Of a stretch of 64,000 nt of DNA, positions 706-58,662 are shown one piece after another. The notes beneath the pieces are model-generated. The model was given only the letters and a program-made list of their open reading frames with translations. It ran no database searches and was not told the DNA's origin. The first letter of the stretch is position 1, and each line of letters opens with the position of its first letter. A program made the translations under genes and the position numbers. The stretch comes from Rhodospirillaceae bacterium (GTDB lineage: Bacteria; Pseudomonadota; Alphaproteobacteria; CACIAM-22H2), in the NCBI GenBank assembly GCA_022843945.1, contig JALHMR010000021.1:1-64000 (forward strand), in the 5' to 3' direction.

Positions 706-783
<78 letters not shown>

Positions 784-1281: not shown

Positions 1282-2598
1282 ATGCTGAAGCCGCCGTTTA
1301 GTTCTGAATTCGATCCCTCGGAAGAGGGCGAAGGCAGTATCGATCCGCTCGGCCTACAACCCGGCTACGAAAGGCTGGCCGACCGCTTACTGCCGGCCGT
1401 CACCGTGCGCATGGGCAATCCGCGCCTAGTTACCGCGATGACACTTGGTGCCCGTGTCTGCGAAGACTGGGACATTGATGCGCTCGCGGCGGACGAGATC
1501 ACGCCGCCATGGCTGGTCTGGGAGTGGTTTGTCGTCGAGGCATTTGTGCGTGCGGAGGACTCCCTGCGTGAGATCTCCGGGGTTCCGGGAACGCGTAAAG
1601 TACGGCGCGCGTTGCGCGCCAAGCGTCCGGTGAGCGCAACTTCATACTTGAAGACTCCCAGCGCCTTCGGCTTCACCGGTGTCTTCCGCCGCCTTGCGGT
1701 CGGGATTGGAATTCTCACCGAGGACGGCCGTCTCGATGACGGTGGTTACGAACTCCTTGCCGCCTGGTCGAAGGACCAACATCTCGAGGGCATCATCGAC
1801 GCCTCTACGGGTGACGGTCATGCCTTCCGCGACCGCCTTCGCCGCGCCGTAGCGCAAGGCATGGAGAAAGGCCATACCACTTGGCAATCACCGGATTTTT
1901 GGCGCGAACTCGCGCGGCGGCTTGACCCGCTAGCGCCCGGCCGAAACGAAAAAAAGTTCCTGCTGGACCGAATTCTGCTGCGCGCCGGTCAGGTTGACAT
2001 GGTCGCACGCTTGAAAGATGCGCTCATTGCCGAGGGCGGCGTCGGCGAACGCCAAGAGGAAGCACCGTTTCTGCGCAAACTGGGCGCTCGCGCTCCCGCC
2101 GATCTCAAGCAATTGTTGACGGCCATCGATGCCTATGAGGCTTTCGGGCGCGCCATTACGGACGCGTTCGACGGCTTGCGCCATTGTGCATCCGTTAACG
2201 GTGGCGCACCTGTTGGCCCGCAAGACTTTTCAGCGACACCGGCTGCAAAGAGGTCGCTCGCGGCCTTGGCGCCCAGTCTCGCGCGCATCCGCGAGCATCC
2301 GAAGCTGCTTGAATGGGAACACGATCGTAACGGGCTTCAGCAGGCGATTGAACTATTCGAAGCTGTTCAGAATGGCGCGGAGTTGTTTGACGCCGTGCTT
2401 CATCATCATGAGCATGTGCAGGATAACAAGCCGCCGAACGGCAAGCGCACCTGGTTCGAACGAAGCCTGCGCGGCAAAATCGTGGTGCGCCCTGGTTACG
2501 TCCTCCCGGAAGCGCCTGATGGCGAGGGTGCCTATGTGCACGAGTATCGCATTCCGACCTTTTCGAGGTTTCTCGGCGACTTGGGGGCACTCCGATGA
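1282..2598 (+). CDS. Hypothetical protein, first gene of the PLD-helicase operon
   Basis: A 438-residue soluble protein that I do not recognise. It has no signal peptide, membrane segment or obvious catalytic motif. Residues about 90-170 (GTRKVRRALR followed by a helix-rich stretch) could form a winged-helix-like region, but this is a guess. It overlaps the next gene by 4 bp, so it is translationally coupled to the PLD nuclease and helicase. The size and position recall DUF6361-type partners sometimes found beside PLD and helicase genes, but similarity could not be shown. The ATG at 1282 has no strong ribosome binding site, so the start is tentative. Confidence 0.7.
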   Translation: MLKPPFSSEFDPSEEGEGSIDPLGLQPGYERLADRLLPAVTVRMGNPRLVTAMTLGARVCEDWDIDALAADEITPPWLVWEWFVVEAFVRAEDSLREISGVPGTRKVRRALRAKRPVSATSYLKTPSAFGFTGVFRRLAVGIGILTEDGRLDDGGYELLAAWSKDQHLEGIIDASTGDGHAFRDRLRRAVAQGMEKGHTTWQSPDFWRELARRLDPLAPGRNEKKFLLDRILLRAGQVDMVARLKDALIAEGGVGERQEEAPFLRKLGARAPADLKQLLTAIDAYEAFGRAITDAFDGLRHCASVNGGAPVGPQDFSATPAAKRSLAALAPSLARIREHPKLLEWEHDRNGLQQAIELFEAVQNGAELFDAVLHHHEHVQDNKPPNGKRTWFERSLRGKIVVRPGYVLPEAPDGEGAYVHEYRIPTFSRFLGDLGALR

Positions 2599-4649
2599 GT
2601 GCTCCTCGCAAGTCAATGACCGAGCAGACCCGTGTTCGCCTTCTCGACCTCTGGCGTGGCGATGACGGCTTTGGCCGTCCGCTTGGTTGCGTGACGACGA
2701 GCTTCACTTTCGATGCCGAACTCTTCGAAGAACAATGCCTTGCGCGGTTCTTATCAATCCAGAGCAACCCGAACGAGACAGCCAAGGCGTATCTGATCGA
2801 ACGAGAAGAGAAGCTGTCGCAATGCTTTGCCTGCGTGCTGGTTGACGCCGCACACGCGTCGCCCGACCGCAGCTTACGTTGGCACATGCTGCCGGTAACG
2901 CTCCCTTCCGGTGGCGTTCTGCATGCCAAACTTACGCTACTGGCCTGGGAGAAGCGTGTTAGAGTTTTGATCGGCTCGGCAAATCTCACAGAGCCGGCCT
3001 ACCGCCGAAATCAAGAAGTGGTCGCAGTTCTAGAGTTCGGTGAGGATGAAAATCCGGCGCCGGAGCTGCTCGCCCAGTGCATCGCCTTCCTACATCGCGT
3101 GCGCCGGTTTGCTCCCGGTTTCGATCGCAGGGGACAGGGACCGCAAAGCGCGCTGGCTGAATTCTTGGCCTCCATCGGGCAACGCGCTCGTTCTCTCCCG
3201 ACCCCAGATCGCGGAGATGCCGAATGTTTTCTCGTTCCGCTGACTCCGGGAGGTGGCAGCGTCATCGATCAACTGTGGGCGTTGTGGTCTGGACCGCGCC
3301 CGGATCGCGCGTGGGCATTAAGCCCTTTTTTCGATGAAGCCGAAAAGGCCAGCGCTACGGCGGCGCGCTTCGCAACGCTTCTTACGACTCGGGGTAACCG
3401 TCGTCTGTGCATCACAGCGCAAGGGCGAACATTAGCCGACGGGACAGTGCAGATCGACGTCCCCGACACGCTCAAGGCGTCGTCACACCCATCACTTGAG
3501 CACGCATTCGCGATTGTTCATCCCCGCAAGGAGCTCGATGGAAGGCAGGAAGAGCGACCTCTTCACGCCAAATCCATCTGGCTGCAACGTGACGGGCGCG
3601 CGCTTTACATGCTCGGATCGAGCAACTTTACGGCCGCCGGGCTCGGCTTGCATCCGAGACATAATATCGAACTGAATCTCGCGTACCTGATCCGCGACTG
3701 TAACTCGCGGTTTGGCAAGCTTTGTGATCAATCCTGGCCAGAGCACACTCAGCTTGGCGATCTCCACAAAGTCCAATTTCTAAGCGATGGACTGATCGAC
3801 TCCGGGGATATCTCGGAGGTTCCAGCCTTGCCTACCGCCTTTGGTCTCGCCCTTTTTTGTGTCGATGCGCAAGGACCGCGCCTGGAACTCGAAATCGCAT
3901 ACGACGCTCCGCCGATGTTTGAAGTTTTCTCCAAGGAAGGCACCCCTCTCATTGACGGCACAATCTGGGCTCGCGATGGCAAGCAAGGCATTGTCGTCGT
4001 CCCGTGGGAGTCCAAGCGACCTCCCAGCGCGCTGGAGGTTCTCTGGCGAAATGAAGCAACAGAGGAATGTCGCGCCGCTTGGGTTGTCAACGTCGCCGAC
4101 ACTTCAGCATTACCGCCTCCCGACGAACTTGGAGCTCTTTCGCTTGCGGAACTCATCGAGATACTGACGTCAGCTCGACCGCTGCATGAAATCGTACTCG
4201 GAATCCTAAAACGCCGCGAAAGCAACGGTGACAGTGGCCCCGGCTCAACGATCGAGGTTGATCCGCACAAGAAGGTCGACACGAGCCAATTCCTGTTGCG
4301 CCGCATGAGGCGCGTGGCGCAGGCGCTCGAGGGAATGCGCGCGCGTTTGCAGCAGCCGGTGGCATCCGTGGAGGCGCTGCGCTGGCGCTTACATGGTCCC
4401 ATCGGCCCCATCGCCTTGGCCAAACGCCTCGCGCTCGATGATCCCGAGGGCGCGGCTTTCATGATTTCGGAAGTTGCGACCACGCTGCACGCGGTTGCCT
4501 GGCAACCGTGTGGATCGTTGAGTGCGCGGCACATTAACCCGGAAGTCGATGCGACCTTGCGCAGCTTACATCAACTGGCAGTTGAGGCTCCCGCACCGGC
4601 GAGCCTCGGCAAGTATGTCATCAAGTCCTTTGAGGAACTGTTGGCGTGA
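2595..4649 (+). CDS. Phospholipase D-like (HKD) nuclease-family protein
   Basis: A 684-residue protein with two HKD-type half-sites. The first is H110-A-K112 followed by GSANLT (127-132) and a downstream glutamate. The second is H324-A-K326 followed by GSSNFT (341-346) and HNIE near 359. In this family the paired histidines and lysines form one phosphodiesterase site, and bacterial examples beside helicases usually cut DNA. The C-terminal half (about 400-684) is unassigned. The start overlaps the previous gene by 4 bp and the end overlaps the helicase start by 4 bp, giving a tight three-gene operon. A role in defence is inferred from context; a lipid substrate is unlikely. Confidence 0.85.
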   Translation: MSAPRKSMTEQTRVRLLDLWRGDDGFGRPLGCVTTSFTFDAELFEEQCLARFLSIQSNPNETAKAYLIEREEKLSQCFACVLVDAAHASPDRSLRWHMLPVTLPSGGVLHAKLTLLAWEKRVRVLIGSANLTEPAYRRNQEVVAVLEFGEDENPAPELLAQCIAFLHRVRRFAPGFDRRGQGPQSALAEFLASIGQRARSLPTPDRGDAECFLVPLTPGGGSVIDQLWALWSGPRPDRAWALSPFFDEAEKASATAARFATLLTTRGNRRLCITAQGRTLADGTVQIDVPDTLKASSHPSLEHAFAIVHPRKELDGRQEERPLHAKSIWLQRDGRALYMLGSSNFTAAGLGLHPRHNIELNLAYLIRDCNSRFGKLCDQSWPEHTQLGDLHKVQFLSDGLIDSGDISEVPALPTAFGLALFCVDAQGPRLELEIAYDAPPMFEVFSKEGTPLIDGTIWARDGKQGIVVVPWESKRPPSALEVLWRNEATEECRAAWVVNVADTSALPPPDELGALSLAELIEILTSARPLHEIVLGILKRRESNGDSGPGSTIEVDPHKKVDTSQFLLRRMRRVAQALEGMRARLQQPVASVEALRWRLHGPIGPIALAKRLALDDPEGAAFMISEVATTLHAVAWQPCGSLSARHINPEVDATLRSLHQLAVEAPAPASLGKYVIKSFEELLA

Positions 4650-7429
4650 CTTGGCCTATTGAAACAGCGAATTTGAGTGCGCGGCTCGACCTCAAGAATG
4701 AGCGCATCAGCGACAGCGATGCAGCTCGCCAGCTCCGGACGATCCTGGAGATTTTGCGCCGGCTCGCCACTCAGCCCGGAGTCGTGCTTGCCGATGAGGT
4801 CGGTATGGGCAAGACATTTGTCGCGCTGGGCGTCGCCATGGTCACTGCTCTTGCGGATCGTGGCCGGCGGCCCGTCGTCATTATGGTGCCGTCGTCGCTC
4901 CACGAAAAATGGCCGCGCGATTTTGATGTCTTCAAGAGTCTTGCGATCAAGCGTCCGGCCGACCAAGTCCTTCGCGCAGAGACTGCCGGCTCAGCGCTCG
5001 ACTTCTTTCGCCTCATCGAGAAGGAAGACAAGAGTCGACCCCACATCATCTTTCTCAAACACGGGGCTTTCCATGTGCGGAATATCGACTATTGGGTGCG
5101 CCTCGCGCTCATCAAGCGTGCGATCCTTGGCATGCATCTCGGCGAAAGGCGCGACGCTCTACCACGCTTTGCTGCCGCGCTCATACGGACAAAGTCCTCC
5201 TACAACGACCCTGATCTGTTCGCGAAGCTGCTGCGCATACCCAACCAGGAATGGCTCGGTGTCATTAACGGCCATTATGAGGGGCGCCCAGAGTACCAGC
5301 TTGACCACCACCCCATACCGCACGCGATTCAGAGGGTCCTCGATTCAAGCGATATCGACATCGCCGCGCTTCGCGAATGCTTGCGGACCCTTCCAGCGCG
5401 TGACTCGGCTACGCTCCACGAACGTCTCGAGGCGGTGCGCCTCGAGATCAACACGGCGCTGCTCACCATGTGGCCTTCAACATTCGCTAAAGCGAGGTTT
5501 CGGTCGCCCCTGCTGATCCTCGACGAAGCGCACCATTTGAAAAACCCCGCGACGCGGCTTGCATCGCTGTTCGTGACTGACGAAGCTCGCGGGGACGCCG
5601 GCACGCTCACAGGGGCGCTCGACGGCGCTTTCGAGCGCATGATGTTCCTGACTGCGACGCCGTTCCAGCTCGGGCACCACGAATTACTGAATGTAATCGA
5701 CCGGTTCCGAGGTGCCGCCTGGAAGACCTTGGCGCCGTACACCAAAGAGCAATTTGATGCCGACGTGAAGACTCTCGGTTCGGTTTTGGACCGCGCTCAG
5801 CACAGCGCTGCGGAGCTGGACAGGCGCTGGCTTTCCTTGCGTCAAGACGACCTCACGGACGGCAACGGCGGACTGCTTCCCCTGGACGGATGGTGGCGCG
5901 AGCTCGCCAGCAATCCGGCAAAAATGCCGGAACGGCTTCAAGTTGTTATGAGAGCCTTTGACCGGACGCGGCAGGACATGAAAAGCGCCGAAGTGCCGTT
6001 ACGCAAATGGGTTATCAGGCACCTGCGCGATAGCAAATTGCCAGGCACGAACATCGCACGTCGATCACGATTTGTCGGCCGCGCCATCTCCCTATCTGGC
6101 GGCGCCGCCGGCGGTGGTCTTCCGGTCGAAGAGGACGCCTTGCTTCCGTTCTTGCTTGCCGCACGGGCACAGGCGGTGATCCTGCGCCAGGGCGAAAGTG
6201 CGGGGCGTGCCACTTTTGCCGAGGGTCTGGCTTCGAGCTACGAAGCCTTTCTCGAAACCCGGGATCGCGACGACATCGACGAACAAGAGCCGGGCATTTC
6301 AAAGGCCGATGACCGCGTGAACCGGTATGTACGCAAGCTTGCGTCCGTGCTTCCCGATGGAAGTGCTTATGCACAGCACCCTAAGATCGCTCCTTTGATC
6401 GCGCGCGTTCTTGACCTTTGGAGCCATGGCGAGAAGGTCGTTGTGTTCTGTCACTATCGACGGACAGGACGAGCGCTGGTACGGCACTTATCCACTGCCC
6501 TCGAACGGCGACTCTGGACTGACGCCATGCGACGCTTTGGGCTCGACGAGCCAAGTGTCCGAAAAGCCATTACGGATTTTGGCGCACGGTTCGATACCGA
6601 CGGCGGCATGCGTCAGCCACTCGACAACGAATTGGCCAAGCGCCTCGACCTTTATCCTCAATTAACCAATGAGGACCGCGAACTGATTCAGGATGTTGTC
6701 CGTCGTTTCGTGCGAACGCCGCTGTTCGTCGCGCGTTATTTCGATGTTCATACGCGTTCCGGCGAACGCGCGCTCCAGTCCGCCTTCGATACCCGCGACA
6801 TGTCGGGCGCGTCGCTTGGCGAGAAAATTGACGCCTTCCTGAAGTTCATCGCAAGACGGTGTTCGCCGGGCGAACGACACGAATACCTCGATGCCTTGAA
6901 TCGCGTCCAGCCCGGTATTCGTGGCGAGTTGCCGGAAGATAGAGACGACGATTGGAGCCAGGTCGAAAATTCAACGGTGATGCCCAACATCCGCCTTGCT
7001 AATGGGGCCGTCAAACAGGAAACGCGCCAACGGTTGATGCTTGCCTTCAATACACCCTTCTTCCCCGAAGTGCTCGTGGCTTCAAGCGTTCTCGCCGAAG
7101 GAGTCGATTTGCATTTGAGTTGCCGCTTTGTGATCCATCACGATTTGAGTTGGAATCCAAGTACCCTGGAGCAGCGCACGGGAAGGGTTGATCGTATCGG
7201 AGCCAAGGCGGAAATGGTTGCGAAGCCTATCGAGGTCTTCCTTCCATACATCGGCGGCACACAGGACGAAAAGCAATTCCGTGTGGTCATGGATCGGGAG
7301 CGTTGGTTTCAGATAATGATGGGTGAGGAATATAGAACAGACGAGTCCTATACCGAGAAAGCCGCTGCGCGAATACCTCTGCCCGCTACCGCAGCAGACA
7401 TTTTGGGATTCGATCTCTCCATCAAATAG
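4646..7429 (+). CDS. SNF2-like DEAD/DEAH helicase
   Basis: A 927-residue superfamily 2 ATPase starting with GTG inside GTGA, overlapping the PLD stop codon. Walker A is DEVGMGKT at residues 50-57. Walker B is LILDEAHHLKN near 290, followed by FLTATPFQ. The C-terminal RecA domain carries ASSVLAEGVDL and EQRTGRVDRIG near 840, the motif V/VI pattern of SNF2/HepA-type translocases. A long insertion (about residues 370-560) separates the lobes. It probably translocates on DNA or strips protein for the PLD nuclease. It is unlike the DISARM helicase pair, since no DUF1998 protein accompanies it. Confidence 0.9.
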   Translation: MTWPIETANLSARLDLKNERISDSDAARQLRTILEILRRLATQPGVVLADEVGMGKTFVALGVAMVTALADRGRRPVVIMVPSSLHEKWPRDFDVFKSLAIKRPADQVLRAETAGSALDFFRLIEKEDKSRPHIIFLKHGAFHVRNIDYWVRLALIKRAILGMHLGERRDALPRFAAALIRTKSSYNDPDLFAKLLRIPNQEWLGVINGHYEGRPEYQLDHHPIPHAIQRVLDSSDIDIAALRECLRTLPARDSATLHERLEAVRLEINTALLTMWPSTFAKARFRSPLLILDEAHHLKNPATRLASLFVTDEARGDAGTLTGALDGAFERMMFLTATPFQLGHHELLNVIDRFRGAAWKTLAPYTKEQFDADVKTLGSVLDRAQHSAAELDRRWLSLRQDDLTDGNGGLLPLDGWWRELASNPAKMPERLQVVMRAFDRTRQDMKSAEVPLRKWVIRHLRDSKLPGTNIARRSRFVGRAISLSGGAAGGGLPVEEDALLPFLLAARAQAVILRQGESAGRATFAEGLASSYEAFLETRDRDDIDEQEPGISKADDRVNRYVRKLASVLPDGSAYAQHPKIAPLIARVLDLWSHGEKVVVFCHYRRTGRALVRHLSTALERRLWTDAMRRFGLDEPSVRKAITDFGARFDTDGGMRQPLDNELAKRLDLYPQLTNEDRELIQDVVRRFVRTPLFVARYFDVHTRSGERALQSAFDTRDMSGASLGEKIDAFLKFIARRCSPGERHEYLDALNRVQPGIRGELPEDRDDDWSQVENSTVMPNIRLANGAVKQETRQRLMLAFNTPFFPEVLVASSVLAEGVDLHLSCRFVIHHDLSWNPSTLEQRTGRVDRIGAKAEMVAKPIEVFLPYIGGTQDEKQFRVVMDRERWFQIMMGEEYRTDESYTEKAAARIPLPATAADILGFDLSIK

Positions 7430-8858: not shown

Positions 8859-9749
8859 ATGGCGCGCGCAGAACGCGGATCGTCCAATCTAGAATTAGCC
8901 CGAAGTCCCACCGATCCGTCCCCCACGCCCGATCGCGCCGCTTGGGCGTGGGAATGGTTGCGGCGCAATCCCCACTATCGATCGGCCGTCCGCTGGGCGG
9001 CGCTGCCTGACATCCAGATTCTGCGCCGCACACCGCCGCTCACCGTCCTAACCTTCGCCGAACCGTCCTCATTCGCGCGGGCTTGGGGCTTGATCGCGCC
9101 GGAAGTCCCAGACCGCGCGGCTGGCTCGGCCCAGGTGTTCTGGCGTCCTGACGTCAATCCCGGTGTCCTGGGCGCGCGCGTTGAACCATCCTCGGACGGC
9201 GAGTCGGTAAACCTCATCGAGCTGGCTTGCACAGTGACGGTCCTGCAGCTTCCGGGGGAAGAGCATGTGCGCTTGAGCGACGGTCTGAGGTCCATCCAGT
9301 TTTTCGTGCGGGACGGAACGGTGTTGAATGGCCCGGTGCAGGTACGCTTCGGTATGCCCGGTCACGGCGTCCTCACACCCAGGCTCGACACCATGCGCCG
9401 GTTCGCGGCATTGCTGAGGACCAAGCGATTCCCGCACTCCCTTTTTGCGCCGCCACCCCATGCCGTCTGGTGGGCACAGGCGCTGACCGCGTTCGACGCT
9501 GCGCAGATCGGCCTACCACGCCGCGAGATCGCCGCGCGCCTGTTCGGCGCCGAAGCGGCCGCACAGCACTGGCCGGCGGAGTCCGAATGGATGCGCAGTC
9601 GCGTGCGGCGCGCGATGCAAATGGGGGAGATGCTGGTCAACGGCGGCTATCGCAAAATACTGAATCCTTCGGGCACCCGCCCCAGGGCTACGGAGGACAA
9701 GCCGTCGAACCGGAAACCGCCGACGACGAACGGGCAACCACGCGCCTGA
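8859..9749 (+). CDS. DUF6499/DUF2285 transcriptional regulator, FseA-like
   Basis: A 296-residue protein. The N-terminal part has the DUF6499 pattern AWEWLRRNPHYR, and the C-terminal 90 residues are DUF2285, ending in a DNA-binding-like segment (RRAMQMGEMLVNGGYR). In the Mesorhizobium symbiosis ICE the same domain pair forms FseA, the activator of the excisionase gene, produced there by frameshifting. Here both domains are in one frame. The start at 8859 follows GGAGGAG; an in-frame ATG at 8784 is the alternative. It likely activates excision and transfer genes, perhaps the RdfS-like gene at 34921. The role is inferred. Confidence 0.8.
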   Translation: MARAERGSSNLELARSPTDPSPTPDRAAWAWEWLRRNPHYRSAVRWAALPDIQILRRTPPLTVLTFAEPSSFARAWGLIAPEVPDRAAGSAQVFWRPDVNPGVLGARVEPSSDGESVNLIELACTVTVLQLPGEEHVRLSDGLRSIQFFVRDGTVLNGPVQVRFGMPGHGVLTPRLDTMRRFAALLRTKRFPHSLFAPPPHAVWWAQALTAFDAAQIGLPRREIAARLFGAEAAAQHWPAESEWMRSRVRRAMQMGEMLVNGGYRKILNPSGTRPRATEDKPSNRKPPTTNGQPRA

Positions 9750-9790
9750 AGCCTCGTATCGCACGGCTGATTTCAACTCTGGATCACGGT

Positions 9791-9835
9791 ATGTTCCCCG
9801 TAGTAATGTTCTTCCAGGGGTTGCGGGGAATAACA
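9791..9835. repeat. Inverted repeat upstream of the type III restriction genes
   Basis: ATGTTCCCCG (9791-9800) and CGGGGAATAACAT (9823-9835) form an imperfect inverted repeat in the 163-bp gap between the DUF2285 gene and res. It could be an operator for the restriction-modification genes or a weak terminator of the DUF2285 gene. There is no clean T-run. Confidence 0.4.
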
Positions 9836-9912
9836 TTTTATATTCAGTGGCTTGCGATGGCCTGACCTGTGGTTCCAGGCCGCGGCGGACATAGCGGCTG
9901 GGGGGCTGAGGG

Positions 9913-12900
9913 GTGTCTAGTCTATTTTTCGATCATCCGATTCTCAATTCCCCATACGAGAAGCCCGGAAGGCACTGGGAGCTGGACGAATCTGGTCAGC
10001 CAACCCAGAGAATTCTTGAGCAGCGGCGGCGCGCGTCGTTCATCACGCCTATCCCCAAGCCGAAGAAGCGGAAGGGAAAGACCAAGCAGGCGGAAATCGT
10101 CTTCGACGAAGGGAAAGGTCTTTCCACCGCCAAGCAGCAGTACGACACAACCTCCATTATCAATGAGGTTCGGCAGGCCGTGGATTCCTGGCGATCGTTG
10201 CCGAGTCCGAGCCAATGGCAGGTCACCCCGGAAACCGCACACCTCCTCCAGCATTGGCGCCACCACCAGTTCACCGGCGTTCGTCCCTTCTTCTGCCAGG
10301 TCGAGGCGGTGGAGACAGCGATTTGGCTGACGGAGGTCGCCCCCCACACCACCGCGGGCAAGCGCCTTCTCGAGCTTCTGACCGCCGCAAACAAAGAAGC
10401 CAATCGGGACTTGATGCGCCTCGCGTTGAAGCTCGCGACCGGTGCAGGAAAGACCACCGTCATGGCCATGCTCATCGCATGGCAGACGATCAACGCAGTA
10501 CGACGCCAGAACAGCAAGAACTTCACACGGGGTTTCCTTGTTGTCGCCCCTGGTCTCACGATCAAGGATCGTCTGCGCGTTCTTCAGCCGAACGACCCCG
10601 ACAGCTACTACGCCAGCCGCGAGCTGGTTCCAGCCGACATGCAGGACGAGATCGGGAAGGCCAAGATCGTCATTACCAACTATCACGCCTTCAAGCTGCG
10701 TGAGCGTATGGAGCTGTCCAAAGGCGGACGGCAACTTCTGCAAGGGCGTGGCGGTGAGGAGCTGAATACGCTCGAAACCGAAGGCCAGATGATTCAGCGC
10801 GTCATGCCCGACCTGATGGGCTTGAAGAACATCATGGTCCTGAACGACGAGGCGCATCACTGCTATCGGGAAAAGCCGCCAGAAGAAGACGACGAAGATC
10901 TAAAGGGCGACGACAAGAAGGAGGCCGAAAAACAGAACGAGGCGGCGCGCCTTTGGATTTCAGGCTTGGAAGCAGTCAATCGCAAGATCGGCATCTCTCG
11001 CGTCATCGACCTGTCCGCGACGCCGTTCTTTCTGCGCGGCTCGGGTTACGCCGAGGGCACGTTGTTCCCGTGGACGATGAGCGACTTCTCGCTCATGGAC
11101 GCGATCGAGTGCGGCATCGTTAAGCTGCCGCGCGTGCCGGTAGCGGAGAACATTTCTGGCGGCGAAATGCCGATGTTTCGCGATCTCTGGGAGAACCTGA
11201 AAGACGCCGAGCCCAGGCTTCCGCGCGGCGGACGCTCTATCGCCGGCGACCTCGACCCGCTCAAGCTGCCGACGCTCCTTCAGACCGCGCTCCAGGCTCT
11301 CTATGGCCATTACGAAAAGACCTTCAAGCTCTGGGAAGACAAGAAGATCAAGGTTCCCCCTTGCTTCATCATTGTCTGCCAAAACACTGCAATCTCGAAG
11401 CTCGTGTATGACTTCGTTTCTGGTTTCCATCGCAAGAATGAGGATGGCTCGACGACGTTGGAAAACGGACGGCTCGCCCTCTTCAGAAACTTTGACGAGA
11501 CGACAGGCAATCCGCTTCCACGACCCAATACTCTTCTCATCGATAGTGAGCAGCTCGAAACCGGCGAGGGGTTGGACGCCAACTTCCGACGCATGGCTGC
11601 CGACGAGATCGACCGGTTCCGTCGTGAGATCATCGAACGCACGGGAAATGTGCAGGCGGCCGACAACATCACGGACCAGGACCTCCTGCGTGAGGTTATG
11701 AACACTGTTGGCAAGCACGGACAGTTGGGGGCGAACATTCGGTGTGTTGTCTCGGTCGCCATGCTGACGGAAGGTTGGGACGCGAACACCGTCACTCACG
11801 TTTTGGGTATTCGCGCGTTTAGCACACAGCTCCTGTGCGAGCAGGTCATCGGCCGCGCCCTGCGGCGCCAGTCCTATGAGCTGAATGGCGAAGATCTATT
11901 CGATGTCGAGTACGCCGATGTCTTCGGCATTCCATTCGATTTCACCGCCAAACCGGTTGTCGCGCCTCCGCAGCCGCCGCGAGAGACCATCCAGGTTAAG
12001 GCTGTCCGCCCCGATCGCGATCATTTGGAAATCCGTTTTCCCCGTGTAGAGGGATACCGGATCGAACTCCCCGAAGAGCGCCTGAGCGCGGTGTTCAACG
12101 ATGAGTCGATCCTGGAGCTCAGCCCGGCACTGATCGGTCCGTCGATCACCCAGAATTCCGGCATCATTGGCCAGTCCGAGAATATGAATCTGGAGCACAT
12201 GGGCCACATCCGGCACTCCACGCTCGTATTCAACGTCACCCAGCGGCTGCTCTATACGAAGTGGCGCGATCCCGGCGAAGAACCGAAACTGCATCTATTC
12301 GGACAGCTTAAACGCATCACGAAGCAATGGCTGGATACATGCCTTGTCTGCAAAGGGGGAACGAACCCCGGGCAACTCATGTACCAGGTCCTCGCCGACA
12401 TGGCGTGCGACAAGATTACCGCCGGAATCACACGCGCCTTTATCGGGGATCGTCCGGTCAAGGCGTTGCTCGATCCATATAACCCGACAGGGTCCACACG
12501 GTTCGTGCGCTTCAATACATCGAAGAACGACCGTTGGGAAACGAACGGCCCGCCGCCAAAGAACCACGTAGATTGGGTGATCCTTGATAGCGACTGGGAG
12601 GCTGAGTTTTGTCGGGTAGCCGAGCAGCACCCGAAAGTGGTCGCTTATACCAAGAACCACAATCTCGGCTTCGAGGTGCCCTATCGCTTCCAGGCCGAGA
12701 ACAGGAAATACCGGCCAGACTTCATTGTTCGTCTCGATGACGGTCATGGACCGGACGACCTGCTGAACCTCGTGGTCGAAATCAAGGGCTACCGCGGCGA
12801 GGATGCCAAGGAGAAGAAGGCCACAATGGAAACCTATTGGGTGCCGGGTGTGAATCATCTCGGCACGTATGGTCGCTGGGCCTTCGCCGAATTCACCGAG

Positions 12901-12999
12901 ATCTATCAGATCGAAGCCGATTTCAAAGGAAAGGTTGCAGTCGCGTTCGATCAACTAATCGCATCCGCTGTTGCTTCATCGACGACAAAGAGCAAGTAA
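9913..12999 (+). CDS. res: Type III restriction enzyme, Res subunit
   Basis: A 1028-residue helicase-nuclease. Walker A is ATGAGKTT near residue 175 and DEAH lies in LNDEAHHCY near 311. The second RecA domain has the LTEGWDANTVTH and QVIGRALRRQ motifs. The C-terminus has a PD-(D/E)xK nuclease (PDFIVRL near 935 and VEIKGY near 954). Type III Res subunits translocate or signal along DNA and cut when two Mod-bound, unmethylated sites are oppositely oriented. The start is GTG, in a G-rich context. The gene ends one base before mod. The order res-mod is the reverse of many type III loci. Confidence 0.92.
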   Translation: MSSLFFDHPILNSPYEKPGRHWELDESGQPTQRILEQRRRASFITPIPKPKKRKGKTKQAEIVFDEGKGLSTAKQQYDTTSIINEVRQAVDSWRSLPSPSQWQVTPETAHLLQHWRHHQFTGVRPFFCQVEAVETAIWLTEVAPHTTAGKRLLELLTAANKEANRDLMRLALKLATGAGKTTVMAMLIAWQTINAVRRQNSKNFTRGFLVVAPGLTIKDRLRVLQPNDPDSYYASRELVPADMQDEIGKAKIVITNYHAFKLRERMELSKGGRQLLQGRGGEELNTLETEGQMIQRVMPDLMGLKNIMVLNDEAHHCYREKPPEEDDEDLKGDDKKEAEKQNEAARLWISGLEAVNRKIGISRVIDLSATPFFLRGSGYAEGTLFPWTMSDFSLMDAIECGIVKLPRVPVAENISGGEMPMFRDLWENLKDAEPRLPRGGRSIAGDLDPLKLPTLLQTALQALYGHYEKTFKLWEDKKIKVPPCFIIVCQNTAISKLVYDFVSGFHRKNEDGSTTLENGRLALFRNFDETTGNPLPRPNTLLIDSEQLETGEGLDANFRRMAADEIDRFRREIIERTGNVQAADNITDQDLLREVMNTVGKHGQLGANIRCVVSVAMLTEGWDANTVTHVLGIRAFSTQLLCEQVIGRALRRQSYELNGEDLFDVEYADVFGIPFDFTAKPVVAPPQPPRETIQVKAVRPDRDHLEIRFPRVEGYRIELPEERLSAVFNDESILELSPALIGPSITQNSGIIGQSENMNLEHMGHIRHSTLVFNVTQRLLYTKWRDPGEEPKLHLFGQLKRITKQWLDTCLVCKGGTNPGQLMYQVLADMACDKITAGITRAFIGDRPVKALLDPYNPTGSTRFVRFNTSKNDRWETNGPPPKNHVDWVILDSDWEAEFCRVAEQHPKVVAYTKNHNLGFEVPYRFQAENRKYRPDFIVRLDDGHGPDDLLNLVVEIKGYRGEDAKEKKATMETYWVPGVNHLGTYGRWAFAEFTEIYQIEADFKGKVAVAFDQLIASAVASSTTKSK

Positions 13000-13000
13000 C

Positions 13001-15772
13001 ATGGCCAAAAAATCCACCAAGCCGAAAGCGGCAAAGACCGTCGAGACGCTCAAGCACAGCGAGGACAAGCGGAAGAACATTCCGACCGCCGAGCTTCAAT
13101 CGATCATTCAGCAGGAACAGGAAAATCCTAAAAAGGTGAAATATCTGCGCAATATCGATCTCGATCCTCAGCTCGTATGGCGTGGCAAGGACGAGCAGGA
13201 CTGGAGCGACCTCGTTGTCAACGCGCCGTCGCTCTACATTCAGGAGAAAGTTCACCCGAAGGTTCTAATCGACGACCTGCTCAAGGCGTCGAAAGAACGC
13301 GCTCACGATGAGGGGCAGATAACGCCCGATCTGTTTGCCGATTTCAACGGCATCCCCAAGGGCGTGGATAAGACCGAGTTCTACCAGCACGACCAGAACT
13401 GGTCGAACCGGATGATACTCGGCGATTCACTTCAAGTGATGGCCAGCCTTGCTGAGCGCGAGGGGCTGCGCGGCAAGGTCCAGTGCGTCTATTTCGATCC
13501 GCCCTACGGCATCAAATTCAACAGCAACTTCCAATGGAGCACAACTGATCGATCTGCCAAGAGCGAGGGCAAAGATTACATCACTCGCGAGCCTGAGCAA
13601 GTTAAGGCGTTCAGAGATACCTGGCGCGACGGAGTCCACAGTTACCTAACCTATCTCCGTGACAGACTCACAGTCTCTAGGGACCTACTAACGGAGAGCG
13701 GATCAATATTCGTTCAGATTGGCGATGAGAATGTACACCGTCTCCGCGCTCTTTTGGACGAGGTTTTTGGCGAAGAGAACTTCGCCGCCATGATCACCTT
13801 TAGAAAGAAAATGATGCCACTTGGTTCCGATGTGGCGGAAGGCGTCAGCGATTACATCCTGTGGTACGCGCGCTCACGAAAAAACATAAAGAGCCGCCCT
13901 CTTTTTTATCAAAAAGACCCGGATGAGGATGGCGTGTGGACATTTGCGCTGTTCCCCGATGGTCGCCGAATTCCTTTGTCCGACTTGAACTCAATTCCCG
14001 AAGGGGCATCGGTATATCAATCAATCTCGTTGCTACCAGCGCAATATAGACCGAATCAAGATTTTGAAATTCAGTTTGAGGGGCGGGCGTGGCAGCCGCC
14101 GAAGCGGAGCTGTTGGAAGAGTGACTCTGAAGGGATGCACCGCCTCATTAAAGCCAACCGCATTCATCCAAGTGGCAACACTCTTAGATACATACTTCGC
14201 CATGCCGACTATCCGGTGGGCCGGATAACAAATCTTTGGGCCGATGCCACTGCCGCGGGCCAGCAAATCTACGTCGTACAGACAAATGTGGACGTGGTTA
14301 AGAGGTGCCTCCTGATGGCCACTGATCCGGGTGATTTGGTGTTGGACCCCACTTGTGGATCGGGCACAACGGCCTATGTGGCTGAACAGTGGGGACGACG
14401 TTGGATCACGATCGACACTTCAAGAGTTTCGCTCGCATTGGCTCGGTCCAGAATCATGGGCGCACGTTATCCATATTATTACCTATCGGACTCGCGAGAG
14501 GGGCAGCAGAAGGAAGGTGAGGTTACGCGCACCGCTCCAAGCTCTAAACCAGTATATGGCAATGTCAGGCATGGCTTTGTATTGGAGCGCGTCCCGCACA
14601 TAACGTTAGGTTCTATTGGCCGGAATACCGAAATTGATGTTGTGTGGGACAAATGGCAGCCGACGTTAGAAGCACTGCGCGAAAAGTTGAATTTGGCTCT
14701 TAAGACTGGTTGGAAGGAATGGGAGGTGCCTCGCGAGCCAGATTCGGGATGGCCCGAGTCCGCCAGAAAAGATCTTGAAGAATTTTGGACGGCACGTACC
14801 AAACGCCAGAAGGAAATCGACGCCTCCATTGCCGCCAAGGCTGAGACCGAGTACCTCTACGACAAGCCTTATGAGGACAAGAAAAAGGTCCGCGTGGCTG
14901 GCCCCTTTACGGTCGAAAGCCTGAGCCCCCACCGCATCCTGGGCGTGGACGAGAACGACGAGTTGATTGATGCGCTGCGGGAAGATGGAGCGGAGTTTGG
15001 TGCGAAACGCTCATTTCCTCAGATTATCCTTGAAAACCTCAAGATTGCCGGTGTGCAGCAGGCCCACAAGGACGACCGGATCACCTTTGCGTCGCTAATG
15101 CCGTGGCCGGGCGCATTGATCTGCGGCGAAGGGAGGTATCTAGAGGGCGACATTGAGAAGCGGGCGGCCATATTTATCGGGCCTGAGTTCGGAACCGTCC
15201 AGCGCGCCGATCTCGTTGAGGCCGCGCGGGAGGCTGGCGACGCTGACTTCGATGTCCTGATCGCCTGTTCGTTCAACTACGAAGCCCACACTACGGAGTT
15301 CAACAAGCTCGGCCGCATTCCAGTCCTCAAGGCGCGCATGAATGCCGATCTCCATATGGCCGAAGACTTGAAGAATACTGGCAAGGGCAACTTGTTCGTG
15401 ATCTTCGGAGAACCGGACATCGATCTCATCACCGAGAAGGACGGTAAACTCCAGGTCAAAGTGAATGGCGTGGACGTGTTCAAGCCACAGACGGGCGAAG
15501 TCGTCAGCGATGGCGCCGACGGCATCGCCTGTTGGTTTGTCGACACGGACTACAACTCGGAAAGCTTTTTTGTCCGTCACGCTTACTTCCTCGGTGCCAA
15601 CGATCCCTACGGTGCGTTGAAGACAACCCTCAAAGCCGAGATTGACGCCGAAGCCTGGGCTACCCTCAACAGCGACACCTCACGGCCTTTCGACAAGCCC
15701 AAATCCGGCCGTATCGCCGTTAAGGTCATAAATCACCTCGGCGACGAAGTGATGAAAGTGTTTCGCGTATGA
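13001..15772 (+). CDS. mod: Type III site-specific DNA methyltransferase, Mod subunit
   Basis: A 923-residue beta-class amino-methyltransferase. DPPY (motif IV, in YFDPPYGIKF) is near residue 166, before the AdoMet motif DPTCGSGTT near 449. The intervening 280 residues include the target-recognition region. The C-terminal 400 residues are longer than in classical Mod proteins. The ATG at 13001 is preferred because it immediately follows the res stop. The middle part (about 13700-14700) reads visibly more AT-rich than the flanks, as if the recognition domain had been exchanged. It methylates adenine and gives sequence specificity to Res. Confidence 0.92.
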   Translation: MAKKSTKPKAAKTVETLKHSEDKRKNIPTAELQSIIQQEQENPKKVKYLRNIDLDPQLVWRGKDEQDWSDLVVNAPSLYIQEKVHPKVLIDDLLKASKERAHDEGQITPDLFADFNGIPKGVDKTEFYQHDQNWSNRMILGDSLQVMASLAEREGLRGKVQCVYFDPPYGIKFNSNFQWSTTDRSAKSEGKDYITREPEQVKAFRDTWRDGVHSYLTYLRDRLTVSRDLLTESGSIFVQIGDENVHRLRALLDEVFGEENFAAMITFRKKMMPLGSDVAEGVSDYILWYARSRKNIKSRPLFYQKDPDEDGVWTFALFPDGRRIPLSDLNSIPEGASVYQSISLLPAQYRPNQDFEIQFEGRAWQPPKRSCWKSDSEGMHRLIKANRIHPSGNTLRYILRHADYPVGRITNLWADATAAGQQIYVVQTNVDVVKRCLLMATDPGDLVLDPTCGSGTTAYVAEQWGRRWITIDTSRVSLALARSRIMGARYPYYYLSDSREGQQKEGEVTRTAPSSKPVYGNVRHGFVLERVPHITLGSIGRNTEIDVVWDKWQPTLEALREKLNLALKTGWKEWEVPREPDSGWPESARKDLEEFWTARTKRQKEIDASIAAKAETEYLYDKPYEDKKKVRVAGPFTVESLSPHRILGVDENDELIDALREDGAEFGAKRSFPQIILENLKIAGVQQAHKDDRITFASLMPWPGALICGEGRYLEGDIEKRAAIFIGPEFGTVQRADLVEAAREAGDADFDVLIACSFNYEAHTTEFNKLGRIPVLKARMNADLHMAEDLKNTGKGNLFVIFGEPDIDLITEKDGKLQVKVNGVDVFKPQTGEVVSDGADGIACWFVDTDYNSESFFVRHAYFLGANDPYGALKTTLKAEIDAEAWATLNSDTSRPFDKPKSGRIAVKVINHLGDEVMKVFRV

Positions 15773-15873
15773 ACACTCCGGACGTCACCCCTCGACCGAG
15801 GGCCATTCCATTGACCAGATGGAATCGAGCGCGGATCATCCATTTGAATTGGGCCGGCCATCCCGTGGAGTAG
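15769..15873 (+). CDS. Possible 34-residue small protein between mod and the RelE-UvrD fusion
   Basis: The ATG overlaps the mod stop codon in ATGA, and the frame runs 34 codons to a TAG 7 bp before the GTG of the next gene. The product is basic, with a WNRARIIHLNW segment. It fills an otherwise empty operon gap, which favours a real coupled gene. No family is recognised, and chance remains possible at this length. A leader or antitoxin-like partner for the downstream RelE/ParE domain is speculative. Confidence 0.3.
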   Translation: MNTPDVTPRPRAIPLTRWNRARIIHLNWAGHPVE

Positions 15874-15880
15874 AGGCGTC

Positions 15881-17956
15881 GTGGAATTTCGTATCGCTGA
15901 CACTTTCACAGCGAGCTTGGCGCGGTTGACCAATGACGAGCAGAAGGCCGTCAAAGTCACCGTATTTGACTTACAGGCGAATCCCGAAAATCCGGGCCAT
16001 AGCTTTCACAAGCTCGACAAGGCGAAAGATAAGAACTTTTGGTCCGTGCGCGTTGGCCGCGACATACGCATCATCGTCCATAGGGTCCCAGGCAGCTTGC
16101 TTGCCTGTTATGTAGACCATCACGACCGGGCTTATGACTGGGCGGAGCGCCGTAAGCTCGAAACCCACCCCAAGACCGGGGCAGCGCAACTTGTAGAAAT
16201 TCGCGAGACCGTCCAACAGATCGCCATTCCGCAGTATGTGGAACACGCCGTTGAGAAGCCGGCAGCAGCACGAAGGCCGCTGTTCGATCATCTTTCGGAC
16301 GACGAGATCCTATCCTATGGCGTACCGCCCGAATGGCTGAAAGATGTGCGCGGGGCTGATGAGGATGCCCTCTTGGCGCTATCGACACATCTCCCCGCCG
16401 AGGCGTCGGAAGCCTTGCTTGAGATCGCGGTGGGCGGCCAGCCGCGGAAGCCGGTTGTTCCCGCGATTGTAAGCCCGTTCGAGCATCCCGACGCGCAGCG
16501 GCGTTTCCGAGTCATGACGAACGTCGAGGAGTTGGAGCGGGCGCTCGAGTATCCCTGGGACAAATGGTCGGTGTTCCTGCATCCCGACCAACGTCAGTTG
16601 GTCGAACGCAGCTATAGCGGGCCGGCGAGGGTATCGGGGTCGGCGGGTACAGGTAAGACAATCGTGGCCTTGCATCGCGCAGCATTTCTTGTCCGTAACG
16701 ATGGCGACGCGCGCGTCTTGCTGACCACCTTCTCCGACACATTGGCCAACGCGCTCCATGCAAGGCTTAAGCGATTGATTGGGAATGAGCCGAGGCTGGG
16801 CGAGCGGATCGACGTGCGATCCCTGGATGCCATTGGACAACGGCTCTACAAACTGCACATCGGTCCTATCGAGCTTGTGAGCCGTGCAGATTTACGAACC
16901 ATGATCGGCGACGCAGCCTCGTCCGTGCCCGACCATAAATTCAGCAATCACTTTGTCCTTACCGAGTGGGAACAGGTGGTCGACGCGTGGCAACTGGACT
17001 CGTGGGAAGGCTATCGTGACGTTGCCCGCTTGGGCAGAAAGACGCGCTTGCCGGAAGCCCGTCGTAAGGTCTTGTGGTCGATATTTGAGAGGGTGCGGGA
17101 GGAATTACGGAGAAGAAACCTTACGACCGAATCGGGCATGTTTACCTCGCTTGCTCAGGCCCTTGCGAAAAGTAAAAACCCGCCCTTCGACTTTGCGGTC
17201 GTGGATGAAGCTCAGGACCTGACAGTCGCCCATCTGCGATTCCTGGCCGCGCTGAATCCCGGTCGGCCAGACGCGCTGTTCTTCGCCGGCGATCTCGGGC
17301 AGCGGATTTTTCAGCAGCCATTTTCATGGAAATCTCTCGGCGTGGATGTGCGTGGCCGCTCCAACACCCTCTGGGTGAACTATCGGACCTCGCATCAAAT
17401 CCGCAGCCAGGCCGATCGCCTGTTGGGGCCGGAGATGGTCGATGTAGACGGCATTGCCGAGAACCGCAGCGGGACGGTCTCTGTCTTCAATGGTCCGCCG
17501 CCCGACATCCAGTCCTTTAAGTCAGAGGCAGAGGAGATCGCGGCGGTCAGTGCCTGGGCAAAAAAACAGGCGCAAGCTGGAGTTCAACCCCACGAAATCG
17601 GCGTCTTCATCCGTTCAGGGGCGCAGTTGCCACGCGCCGTGGCTGCCATTAAGGGAGCCGCGCTACCATTCACGGTACTGGACGAGAAGGTTGCGACGAC
17701 AAGCGGGCAGGTCTCGATCAGCACGATGCACCTGGCCAAAGGATTGGAATTCCGCGCCGTGGCGGTCATGGCCTGCGACGACGAGGTTATTCCGCTCCAG
17801 GAAAGAATCGAAACTGTTGGCGACGAATCGGATCTCCAAGAGGTGTACGACACAGAGCGACAGCTCCTATATGTCGCCTGTACGCGTGCGCGAGATCATT
17901 TGCTGGTAACAAGCGTCGAGCCAGCATCCGAGTTCTGCGCGGATTTTGCACTCTAA
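15881..17956 (+). CDS. RelE/ParE-like domain fused to a UvrD-type helicase
   Basis: A 691-residue protein. Residues 1-90 resemble a RelE/ParE toxin fold (DKNFWSVRVGRDIRIIVHR). Residues about 235-690 form a superfamily 1 helicase, with GSAGTGKT near 252, VVDEAQDL near 440, STMHLAKGLEFRAV and YVACTRARDHL. The GTG at 15881 follows GGAG/GAGG. It sits right after the type III res-mod genes on the same strand, so it is likely co-transcribed and may be an accessory defence protein. Whether the N-terminal domain still cuts mRNA or merely binds is unknown. Confidence 0.85.
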   Translation: MEFRIADTFTASLARLTNDEQKAVKVTVFDLQANPENPGHSFHKLDKAKDKNFWSVRVGRDIRIIVHRVPGSLLACYVDHHDRAYDWAERRKLETHPKTGAAQLVEIRETVQQIAIPQYVEHAVEKPAAARRPLFDHLSDDEILSYGVPPEWLKDVRGADEDALLALSTHLPAEASEALLEIAVGGQPRKPVVPAIVSPFEHPDAQRRFRVMTNVEELERALEYPWDKWSVFLHPDQRQLVERSYSGPARVSGSAGTGKTIVALHRAAFLVRNDGDARVLLTTFSDTLANALHARLKRLIGNEPRLGERIDVRSLDAIGQRLYKLHIGPIELVSRADLRTMIGDAASSVPDHKFSNHFVLTEWEQVVDAWQLDSWEGYRDVARLGRKTRLPEARRKVLWSIFERVREELRRRNLTTESGMFTSLAQALAKSKNPPFDFAVVDEAQDLTVAHLRFLAALNPGRPDALFFAGDLGQRIFQQPFSWKSLGVDVRGRSNTLWVNYRTSHQIRSQADRLLGPEMVDVDGIAENRSGTVSVFNGPPPDIQSFKSEAEEIAAVSAWAKKQAQAGVQPHEIGVFIRSGAQLPRAVAAIKGAALPFTVLDEKVATTSGQVSISTMHLAKGLEFRAVAVMACDDEVIPLQERIETVGDESDLQEVYDTERQLLYVACTRARDHLLVTSVEPASEFCADFAL

Positions 17957-57118: not shown

Positions 57119-57156
57119 GCGGGCTGGCAGACTGTCAGAGCCTACTCAGCCGCTAT
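57119..57156. repeat. Right copy of the mer-flanking direct repeat
   Basis: It matches 53275-53312 at 33 of 38 bases. It overlaps the integrase stop codon and last four sense codons. Together the copies bracket merR to merA exactly. Confidence 0.8.
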
Positions 57157-58374
57157 CGGGATCGGCTTTTCAGCGGCACTTCCGGACTTTTGGTTTGCTT
57201 TCGCTTTCCGCGCCACTTTCTTGCGCATCGCCTTCTCGATCGTTTCGGACACACGATCCGCGGCCGATTTCACCGGATTGTCGGCCAGATGGGCGTATCG
57301 GGCCGTCGTTTGGACCTGCGTATGGCCCAGCAGCTTGCCGATCATCGGCAAGCCTTCGCCGAGCGCGAGCGCGCCACTCGCATACGAATGGCGGAGATCG
57401 TGAATGCGCACATCGTCGAGCCCTGCTTTCGCTCGGATACGGCGCCACGGATGTTGAAGGTCGGTCAGATGGCTTTTCTCCTTTCGCCCTGTGACGACAT
57501 AGGGGTTCTCGTCGACCTTTTTGATGCCTTTGAGGACCTTCACCGCGGATTTTCCAAGATGGACGATCTTTGCGCCGGTTTTGGAATCGGGCAGCCGCAA
57601 TTCCTGCGCCTTCAAATCCACATGATCCCACTTCAAGGTCATGATCTCGCCTAGCCGACACCCGGTCAGCAGGAGAAGCCGGATCGCATCGACAGCCGAT
57701 TGCGTCTCTGATTGATCCTGCTCGGTGTCCCGGAGCGCCTTCCCCAATGCCGCGAACTCTTCGGGCGACAAAAACCGCTCGCGCTTCTGCTCGACATATT
57801 TCTTGACGTGGAGGCACGGATTGCTGCCGTCGAGGCGCAGGCCCCAGACCTCCGCACAATTGAACATCTTCGAGAGCACGCCGAAGGTCCGGTTGGCCTG
57901 GTAGGGGATATGGCTGAGGCTTTGGTGCAGCTCGGCGATGTCCCGTCGCTCGATATCGGTCACCTTCCGCGTGCCGATCTTCGGATTGATAAAGAGCTCG
58001 ACGGAGCGTTTGTATTCCGCCTGTGTGCTCGGCTTGCAGTGGATGGCGACGTGCTCTTTCAGGAACCGCTCGCCGAGGCCCTTCACGGTCGGCGCGACGC
58101 GGGCCTGATCCTGCTCGCGGACCGGATCGTTGCCCGCCTTCGCTTCCGAGAGAATGCCCATTGCCTTGATCCGGGCTTTCTCGGCGGTCACCGGGCCATG
58201 GGTGCCGAGCGTTATGCGCCGCTGACGGCCTTTGATGCGGCACTTGACGATGTAGACCTTCCGGCCGGTCGGCCAGACGCGAACGCCGAAGCCGCGGAGT
58301 TCGTCATCCCAGTGGACGGTTTCGACCGGTCCCGGCTCAATCTGATCAACGACGCGTTTCGTAATCTTCGCCAT
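57142..58374 (-). CDS. intS: Tyrosine integrase of the ICE (IntS-like, DUF4102 N-terminus)
   Basis: A 410-residue P4-type integrase. The N-terminal DUF4102 domain (FGVRVWPTGRKVYIVKCR) is followed by the core-binding domain and the catalytic domain with Arg in GCRLGEIMTLKW, HDLRHSYASGAL, and GHTQVQTTARYAHL (nucleophile Tyr). The ATG at 58374 follows AAAGG. A GGTACC word sits in its leader, hinting at autoregulation by arm-site binding. The gene starts 242 bp from attR. Confidence 0.93.
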   Translation of the reverse strand: MAKITKRVVDQIEPGPVETVHWDDELRGFGVRVWPTGRKVYIVKCRIKGRQRRITLGTHGPVTAEKARIKAMGILSEAKAGNDPVREQDQARVAPTVKGLGERFLKEHVAIHCKPSTQAEYKRSVELFINPKIGTRKVTDIERRDIAELHQSLSHIPYQANRTFGVLSKMFNCAEVWGLRLDGSNPCLHVKKYVEQKRERFLSPEEFAALGKALRDTEQDQSETQSAVDAIRLLLLTGCRLGEIMTLKWDHVDLKAQELRLPDSKTGAKIVHLGKSAVKVLKGIKKVDENPYVVTGRKEKSHLTDLQHPWRRIRAKAGLDDVRIHDLRHSYASGALALGEGLPMIGKLLGHTQVQTTARYAHLADNPVKSAADRVSETIEKAMRKKVARKAKANQKSGSAAEKPIPIAAE

Positions 58375-58465
58375 TTGGTACCTTTTGTGTGCAGGGACCA
58401 AGTCCCGGGCCTAACCCTCAGTTTTTCGACCTGACGCCTGCGCCTCTTCAGCTCGCTTTCGGCTA

Positions 58466-58483: not shown

Positions 58484-58616
58484 CTCGAACGGCAATCAGG
58501 AGAATTTTGAGGGTAACGAGGTCGTAGCGAGAATCAAAGGAAAATCTAGGAGATATAGTAGGTTAGGGTAGGTACAGCGAAGATGGGCGAAAGTGGTTCG
58601 GGGCCAATTAATCAGT

Positions 58617-58662
58617 CTCATAACCTGAAGGTCACAGGTTCAAATCCTGTCCCCGCAACCAA
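58617..58662 (+). repeat. attR: attR core: 46-bp tRNA-fMet 3' fragment
   Basis: It is identical to 738-783. The 5' half of the tRNA is absent here, so this is a tRNA fragment left by integration, not a functional gene. Confidence 0.95.

Follow-up and report, generated by a model that had tools for sequence, protein, structure and literature searches.

What does a three-gene operon pairing a nuclease with a helicase do at the edge of an integrative and conjugative element (ICE), and to which known system, if any, does it belong? The question is raised by a stretch of 64,000 nucleotides from a Rhodospirillaceae bacterium (contig JALHMR010000021.1, positions 1 to 64,000, hereafter the window), in which three genes, A, B and C, follow one another on the forward strand. 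The original prediction described their products as an unrecognised protein, a double-HKD nuclease and an SNF2-like helicase, and proposed a candidate new defence system that was not DISARM and whose composition matched no named system. The analysis presented here points to a probable answer: an ICE-borne anti-phage or anti-mobile-element defence operon, a divergent branch of a superfamily that also includes Azaca and PDC-M27, in which an A-B effector would be licensed by C.

Gene A (1282-2598, + strand) encodes a putative partner protein of 438 amino acids (aa), predicted to be mostly helical, with an N-terminal DPLG box and a C-terminal Y-R/L-DL block. Gene B (2595-4649, +) encodes a predicted 684-aa nuclease of double phospholipase-D (PLD) fold, a relative of ZacB, and gene C (4646-7429, +), which has a GTG start, a 927-aa SNF2/RapA-like superfamily 2 (SF2) helicase/translocase related to PDC-M27C and ZacC. 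The two 4-bp overlaps said to couple the genes are read directly from the sequence, as ATGA between A and B (2595-2598) and GTGA between B and C (4646-4649), and all three genes are coding. Relative to the related locus L002, the numbers of changes at codon positions 1/2/3 are 76/59/232 for gene A, 135/101/368 for gene B and 155/127/486 for gene C. Since changes with respect to the relatives at L002 and L003 fall mostly at the third codon position, A, B and C are all under purifying selection.

These two relatives, from metagenome-assembled genomes of Rhizomicrobium (L002) and Bradyrhizobium (L003), were the two loci obtained in a degenerate-peptide scan with B of one genome per species (84,980 species), an approach which detects close relatives only. 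They belong to two other genera and carry the full trio in the same order, with 70-77% identity to the window. Genome G583, from another class, includes a trio in the same order (locus L017) with identities of 31, 35 and 41% for A, B and C, and a more divergent trio is found on the Methylocystis plasmid NZ_CP107561.1 (WP_165050425.1, WP_165050423.1 and a helicase spanning the record start). Among sampled genomes, B gave matches in 4 of 385 from the class, three of them weak and the fourth the window's own, and the A profile in 3 of 398 from the phylum (the window's own, G583 and one weak match), while the window's own genome was the single positive among 23 of its order and G583 the single positive among 78 of its class. 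The weak matches of B (L005 in G257, L006 in G181 and L007 in G183; E 3.6e-5 to 7.2e-4) were set aside: the start of L006 resembles a molybdopterin oxidoreductase (open reading frame, ORF, read by eye) and this locus was taken as a chance match, and L005 and L007 resemble PLD proteins of other kinds. That of the A profile is L010 (G492; E 6.7e-4), whose surrounding region is L022. When plasmids were searched by tblastn, A gave no record, B one and C five (H1-H5). Four of the five C-bearing records (H1, H2, H4 and H5) contain an A-B-C trio, H4 and H5 with the same trio accessions, and in H3 a helicase piece adjoins an IS21 element with no trio visible. Plasmids with a version of the trio include ones from Vibrio and Rhodoferax. 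No match was found in phages searched with C, nor in viral contigs searched with B, with ZacA or with the Methylocystis A; viral contigs searched with the M27A protein of PDC-M27 returned already-known contigs only. The three genes are adjacent in all four loci of the branch (the window, L002 and L003 found via B, and L017 found via A) and therefore recur as a linked unit rather than as scattered genes. The trio is a real, conserved operon, rare and patchy in its distribution and kept together. An ORF of L003 that resembles a tyrosine integrase (357-1715, by eye), roughly 7 kb upstream of the genes of the trio, raises the possibility that this locus is likewise an integrated island.

Protein C carries Pfam SNF2 (PF00176) and Helicase_C (PF00271) matches with its core motifs intact, in agreement with its description as an SNF2-like helicase: Walker A (GMGKT, 53), the DEAH box (293), a TAT motif and motif VI (EQRTGRVDR, 842) are all present. 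Among PADLOC models its best score is with PDC-M27C (PDLC04556; 4.1e-41), followed by DrmD (1.3e-27), ZacC (PDLC03830; 5.2e-23) and DrmA (4.2e-18). The aligned part of the ZacC match corresponds to the helicase motifs. Among solved structures compared by sequence, C matches RapA (1.1e-11) and other SNF2 proteins.

Protein B matches PLDc_2 (PF13091; 1.3e-8). Its best PADLOC match is ZacB (PDLC03829; 1.4e-19), above a weak match to DrmC (3.9e-6); the match to M27B (PDLC04553; 1.7e-5) has a best stretch of just 39 residues. Profile-profile comparison with the four ZacB proteins of Azaca comparison trios (hhalign) aligned both HxK...GSxN halves, at a probability of 94.8% across 313 columns. The first PLD half reads H110-x-K112...G127-S-A-N130...E141 and the second H324-x-K326...G341-S-S-N344...E359, and the H, K, S, N and E of both halves are invariant in all seven aligned B proteins, including those of helicase-less types. 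Of the predicted double-HKD nuclease, the two PLD half-sites are therefore retained, but the canonical D is not at its usual position in either half, and double HKN is the nearer description. Tdp1 is an H-K-N PLD enzyme of this sort. A sequence search of B against solved structures found none. In a Foldseek search with a structure model of B, Tdp1 came first (1.3e-4), followed by SauUSI, and the NgoAVII R-protein ranked 11th (E 0.024); TM-scores were low. This order, from a low-confidence model, fits a PLD fold.

The DrmC match of B and the DrmD match of C could be taken to indicate a relative or remnant of DISARM, composed of a DrmC-like PLD protein and a DrmD-like SNF2 helicase, and a full-length DrmD is encoded two genes upstream of A in L017. 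We regard this as very improbable. ZacB scores above DrmC and PDC-M27C above DrmD, and the DrmA/DrmB pair is missing: neither A, B nor C matches DrmB/DUF1998, and the DrmA match of C lies below those of PDC-M27C, DrmD and ZacC. Moreover, the DrmD of L017 is a separate gene beside a whole trio. The trio is thus not DISARM, as had been proposed.

Protein A is more difficult to place. Searches of Pfam, NCBIfam, PADLOC and PHROGs gave no usable family match; the ZacA/DUF6361 models (PDLC03828, PF19888) do not match A, the M27A model matches neither A nor anything else in the window's genome, and sequence comparison with solved structures gave chance matches only. The connection to known families comes through intermediates. 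For comparison, Azaca trios (L018-L021) were drawn from ZacA matches in 6 of 398 genomes, four of them strong, and PDC-M27 trios from M27A matches in 2 of 398 genomes, one of them strong (L030), and from plasmids (L033 and L034). A further match to M27A (L026/L031, G699; 0.0077) was discarded, being without a match to A, B or C. The closely similar viral contigs L027 and L029 carry an A-B-C trio, and the A protein of L027 matches both the PADLOC M27A model (7.9e-19) and the A proteins of the window branch (1.4e-8, in a 325-sequence test). A profile combining the branch A proteins with that of L027 recovered M27A (8.7e-12), the Methylocystis A (3.6e-11) and two of the four ZacA proteins (1.9e-4 and 6.3e-4). 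Three M27A proteins, the Methylocystis A and these two ZacA proteins outrank all decoys (155 neighbouring ORFs and 155 reversed ORFs; best decoy 0.036). When the ends of 18 A proteins were aligned jointly, two elements were common to them, D(P/E)LG...PG...R as an N-terminal box and Y(R/K)...L-DL as a C-terminal block. A is therefore likely to be a remote homologue of M27A and, weakly, of ZacA (DUF6361), by way of the trios of viral contigs and plasmids.

In trees of A, B and C, calculated with FastTree on difficult alignments, the window branch forms its own clade beside M27, Azaca and, in the A and B trees, helicase-less A-B pairs; the trees do not resolve how these clades relate to one another. 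We conclude that the trio is likely to represent a further branch of the Azaca/PDC-M27 superfamily of A-B-C operons and a strict member of neither. Several observations weigh against this assignment. In the C tree, support for the branching order of the groups is weak and the window branch does not take in the C protein of Methylocystis, and the likeness of C lies largely in generic helicase motifs common to DrmD, DpdE and RapA. For A, the absence of a direct family match is accompanied by the other two ZacA proteins remaining among or below the decoys, by a ZacA-only profile which does not find A, and by a weak direct hhalign comparison of A with ZacA (E 0.019, probability 2.4%). With a profile of the branch alone, the L010 ORF (4.2e-4) outranks M27A, L010 having been picked earlier by the same profile. 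The structure models are poor: that of A (438 aa, 4-row alignment) is mostly helical with a pLDDT confidence score of 50.5 and, in VIA-align, reaches Z <= 5.3 to unrelated helical bundles, and that of B (7-row alignment) has a pLDDT of 45.1.

Two further assignments were rejected: a plain Azaca call, because the ZacA model fails on A, and a categorically new system, because B and C match known trios. The succession of an unknown protein, a PLD protein and an SNF2 helicase is the composition of both Azaca and PDC-M27, whose models B and C match, and the claim that it corresponds to no named system does not hold. For the first protein, unrecognised in the original prediction, no Pfam, NCBIfam or PADLOC model is reached directly, but through intermediates it joins the M27A/ZacA superfamily; the database match that was to refute the original prediction is thus obtained only weakly. 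What survives of the candidate new defence system is a real operon that occupies a cargo site and has defence genes around it. It is related to a named system at some distance, without being an ordinary member of that system or the founder of a new kind.

The cargo position is clear. The first genes of the window are those for 23S rRNA (its end only), 5S rRNA and tRNA-Met (706..782, +; ARAGORN, Rfam tRNA), the last of which serves as the integration site. A 51-bp direct repeat is present as attL in the 3' part of the tRNA-Met gene (733..783, +) and as attR (58612..58662, +), the two copies being 98% identical. Beside attR lies a tyrosine integrase gene (57145..58401, -; PF00589, 2.8e-23), and between the copies are genes for a relaxase (DUF3363) and for TrbE-, TrbL- and TrbI-type proteins. 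Gene A starts about 0.5 kb downstream of tRNA-Met, that is, 0.5 kb inside attL. Together, the repeats, the adjacent integrase and the relaxase and Trb genes define a 58-kb ICE in which the trio is the cargo next to attL, in line with the placement at an ICE edge given originally. Downstream of the trio are genes for an AraC-type regulator and a RovC-domain protein and then a type III restriction pair, a BPTD_3080-family Res (9913-12999; 1361 bits) and a 933-aa Mod (12971-15772; 1359 bits). The same ICE continues with a UvrD/GajB-like helicase (15881-17956), an HATPase protein (18553-20376) and a DUF2130 protein (20878-22566); an AbiEii-type nucleotidyltransferase toxin gene (59678-60739) lies just beyond attR.

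Defence or restriction genes are also neighbours of the related trios. In addition to the type III restriction-modification genes near the window trio, L002 has AbiEi/AbiEii directly upstream of the trio, L003 has ThiF/JAB and E2 genes, a WYL regulator, a Cas4/RNase H/helicase protein and, downstream, a PDC-S37 protein, L017 has a WYL domain, full-length DrmD (1.5e-279) and a helicase-nuclease, and the Methylocystis locus has QatC and RmrA-like genes. Such genes are therefore present nearby in five of five loci, a count without a random-locus control, and ICE edges collect cargo of all sorts; both points temper a defence interpretation. A rival reading is a module of mobile-element cargo or housekeeping (DNA repair, or ICE establishment or stabilisation) without anti-phage activity, to which the ICE-edge location, the relatives on plasmids and in IMG/VR viral contigs, and the RapA/SNF2-like C and Tdp1-like B, folds with roles in repair or transcription, could be attributed. 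We consider it unlikely: the contexts of L002, L003 and L017 differ, and the stretches read show no conjugation module common to them; Azaca, a relative, is already named as an anti-phage system; and the neighbours are defence genes.

Certain other genes recur beside the trios. They encode WYL/WCX regulators, and DUF2779 or Cas4/RNase H nucleases, at L003 (2031-8661), L033 (1-1470), L027 (3061-4575) and L017 (101-646). At L017 in G583 (9501-16973), the genes upstream of the trio encode an ATPase of actin-like appearance (by eye), the full-length DrmD and an AAA_11/MTES_1575 helicase-nuclease. On Vibrio nigripulchritudo plasmids (L034, 8091-13057), the genes after a PDC-M27-type trio encode a nucleotidyltransferase and a pair made up of a SLATT protein and a reverse transcriptase.

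How might the three proteins act together? At five loci a related, ZacA/ZacB-like A-B pair lacks a neighbouring SNF2 helicase gene: L043 (331-4235), L044 (305-4251), L041 (5974-9854), L023 (6291-10210) and L024 (7110-11052), three of them in IMG/VR contigs. The weak ZacA matches in G724 and G674 correspond to L023 and L024, and the pairs of L043 and L044 are near apparent phage structural genes (ORFs read by eye). These pairs suggest that A-B is the effector core and C an added module. Another viral contig, L028 (4931-16278), encodes in a row a PLD protein, an SNF2-like helicase and two more large proteins, the second UvrD/AddA-like by eye; a WYL-like gene is located upstream, and a 405-aa gene before the PLD gene matches no PADLOC model.

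For the window trio we infer complex formation, trigger, target and phenotype as follows. A and B would together act as the effector: in B, a PLD nuclease, the two H-K-N-E half-sites would combine into a single active centre, and the helical DPLG-box protein A would hold or aim B, the A-B nuclease being kept in check. C, as an SNF2-type translocase, would scan DNA and, on encountering a foreign or abnormal stretch (DNA ends, or structures arising in replication or recombination), use ATP to license cleavage by A-B. A comparable arrangement is described for Hachiman, a sensor-helicase/nuclease pair in which the helicase senses damage and releases the nuclease (PMC12278908). CglI and NgoAVII offer a further, biochemical precedent, in which a separate helicase drives the endonuclease (PMC4267653, PMC5737866).

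A different division of labour is that of an ATP-dependent restriction enzyme of the CglI/NgoAVII kind, with B as endonuclease, C as helicase and A in site recognition; a methyltransferase, for instance the type III Mod, would then mark self. An endonuclease with a separate helicase ATPase is indeed the CglI/NgoAVII plan, in which DNA is cut by an R-protein endonuclease and a separate helicase (PMC4267653, PMC5737866); the NgoAVII R-protein is among the matches of the B model and a Res/Mod pair lies downstream in the same ICE. We nevertheless hold it to be improbable: Mod has its own Res partner, the operon includes no methyltransferase, none occurs among the 16 scanned neighbouring proteins of four other loci (L002, L003, L017 and L036), and neither A nor B matches a DNA-recognition domain. 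The lack of a conserved methyltransferase next to the trio makes methylation the less probable way of marking self; under the licensing of A-B by C, self would probably be spared by the state of its DNA.

The trio may go further and constitute a functionally distinct, unnamed system, although we would on balance doubt this. Azaca, PDC-M27, the window branch and the A-B pairs would then share an unrecognised core, in which a DPLG-box sensor/adaptor controls an HKN PLD nuclease and to which the SNF2 helicase would be an optional addition for scanning; if so, the A proteins would set the trigger, and the window branch would sense something that Azaca does not. One conserved A-B core would tie together Azaca, PDC-M27 and an unannotated branch, and the natural helicase-less versions make the question of which part senses and which part kills experimentally tractable. 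The motif analysis of B and C names the catalytic residues to mutate. The operon being rare and patchy, its practical weight is limited.

Among known systems, DISARM resembles the trio in its PLD and SNF2 proteins but differs in having DrmA and DrmB, and its DrmC and DrmD models score more weakly. CglI and NgoAVII resemble it in combining an endonuclease with a separate helicase ATPase, the NgoAVII R-protein being a weak match of the B model; in contrast to the trio, they include a methyltransferase gene, cleave at a set distance from the sequence they recognise and have no counterpart of A. Hachiman also combines a nuclease with a sensor helicase and provides a working analogy for the mechanism, with no homology claimed: HamB is Ski2-like, HamA is a DUF1837 protein and the system has two genes.

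The closest likenesses are with Azaca and PDC-M27. Azaca (ZacA-ZacB-ZacC) was reportedly named by Millman et al. in 2022. It has the same gene order as the window trio, an unknown protein, a PLD protein and an SF2 helicase, and ZacA shares the D(P/E)LG...PG box with A. It differs in that A fails the ZacA/DUF6361 model and in that C, at 927 aa, is shorter than the corresponding proteins of the four Azaca trios (1039-1065 aa) and closer to PDC-M27C. The literature lists a PLD-like domain for Azaca (PMC10952713), gives ZacC as its helicase (PMC12278908) and, in a 2026 review, lists its mechanism as unknown (PMC12926258). Literature searches found no paper on DUF6361 and none on PDC-M27, which is only a predicted candidate from PADLOC. 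PDC-M27 also has the same order, with similar sizes (461-470, 643-668 and 884-891 aa in L030, L033 and L034); its M27A model does not match A and its M27B model matches B best over 39 residues, but M27C is the best PADLOC match of C, and A is tied to this family through the viral-contig trio of L027.

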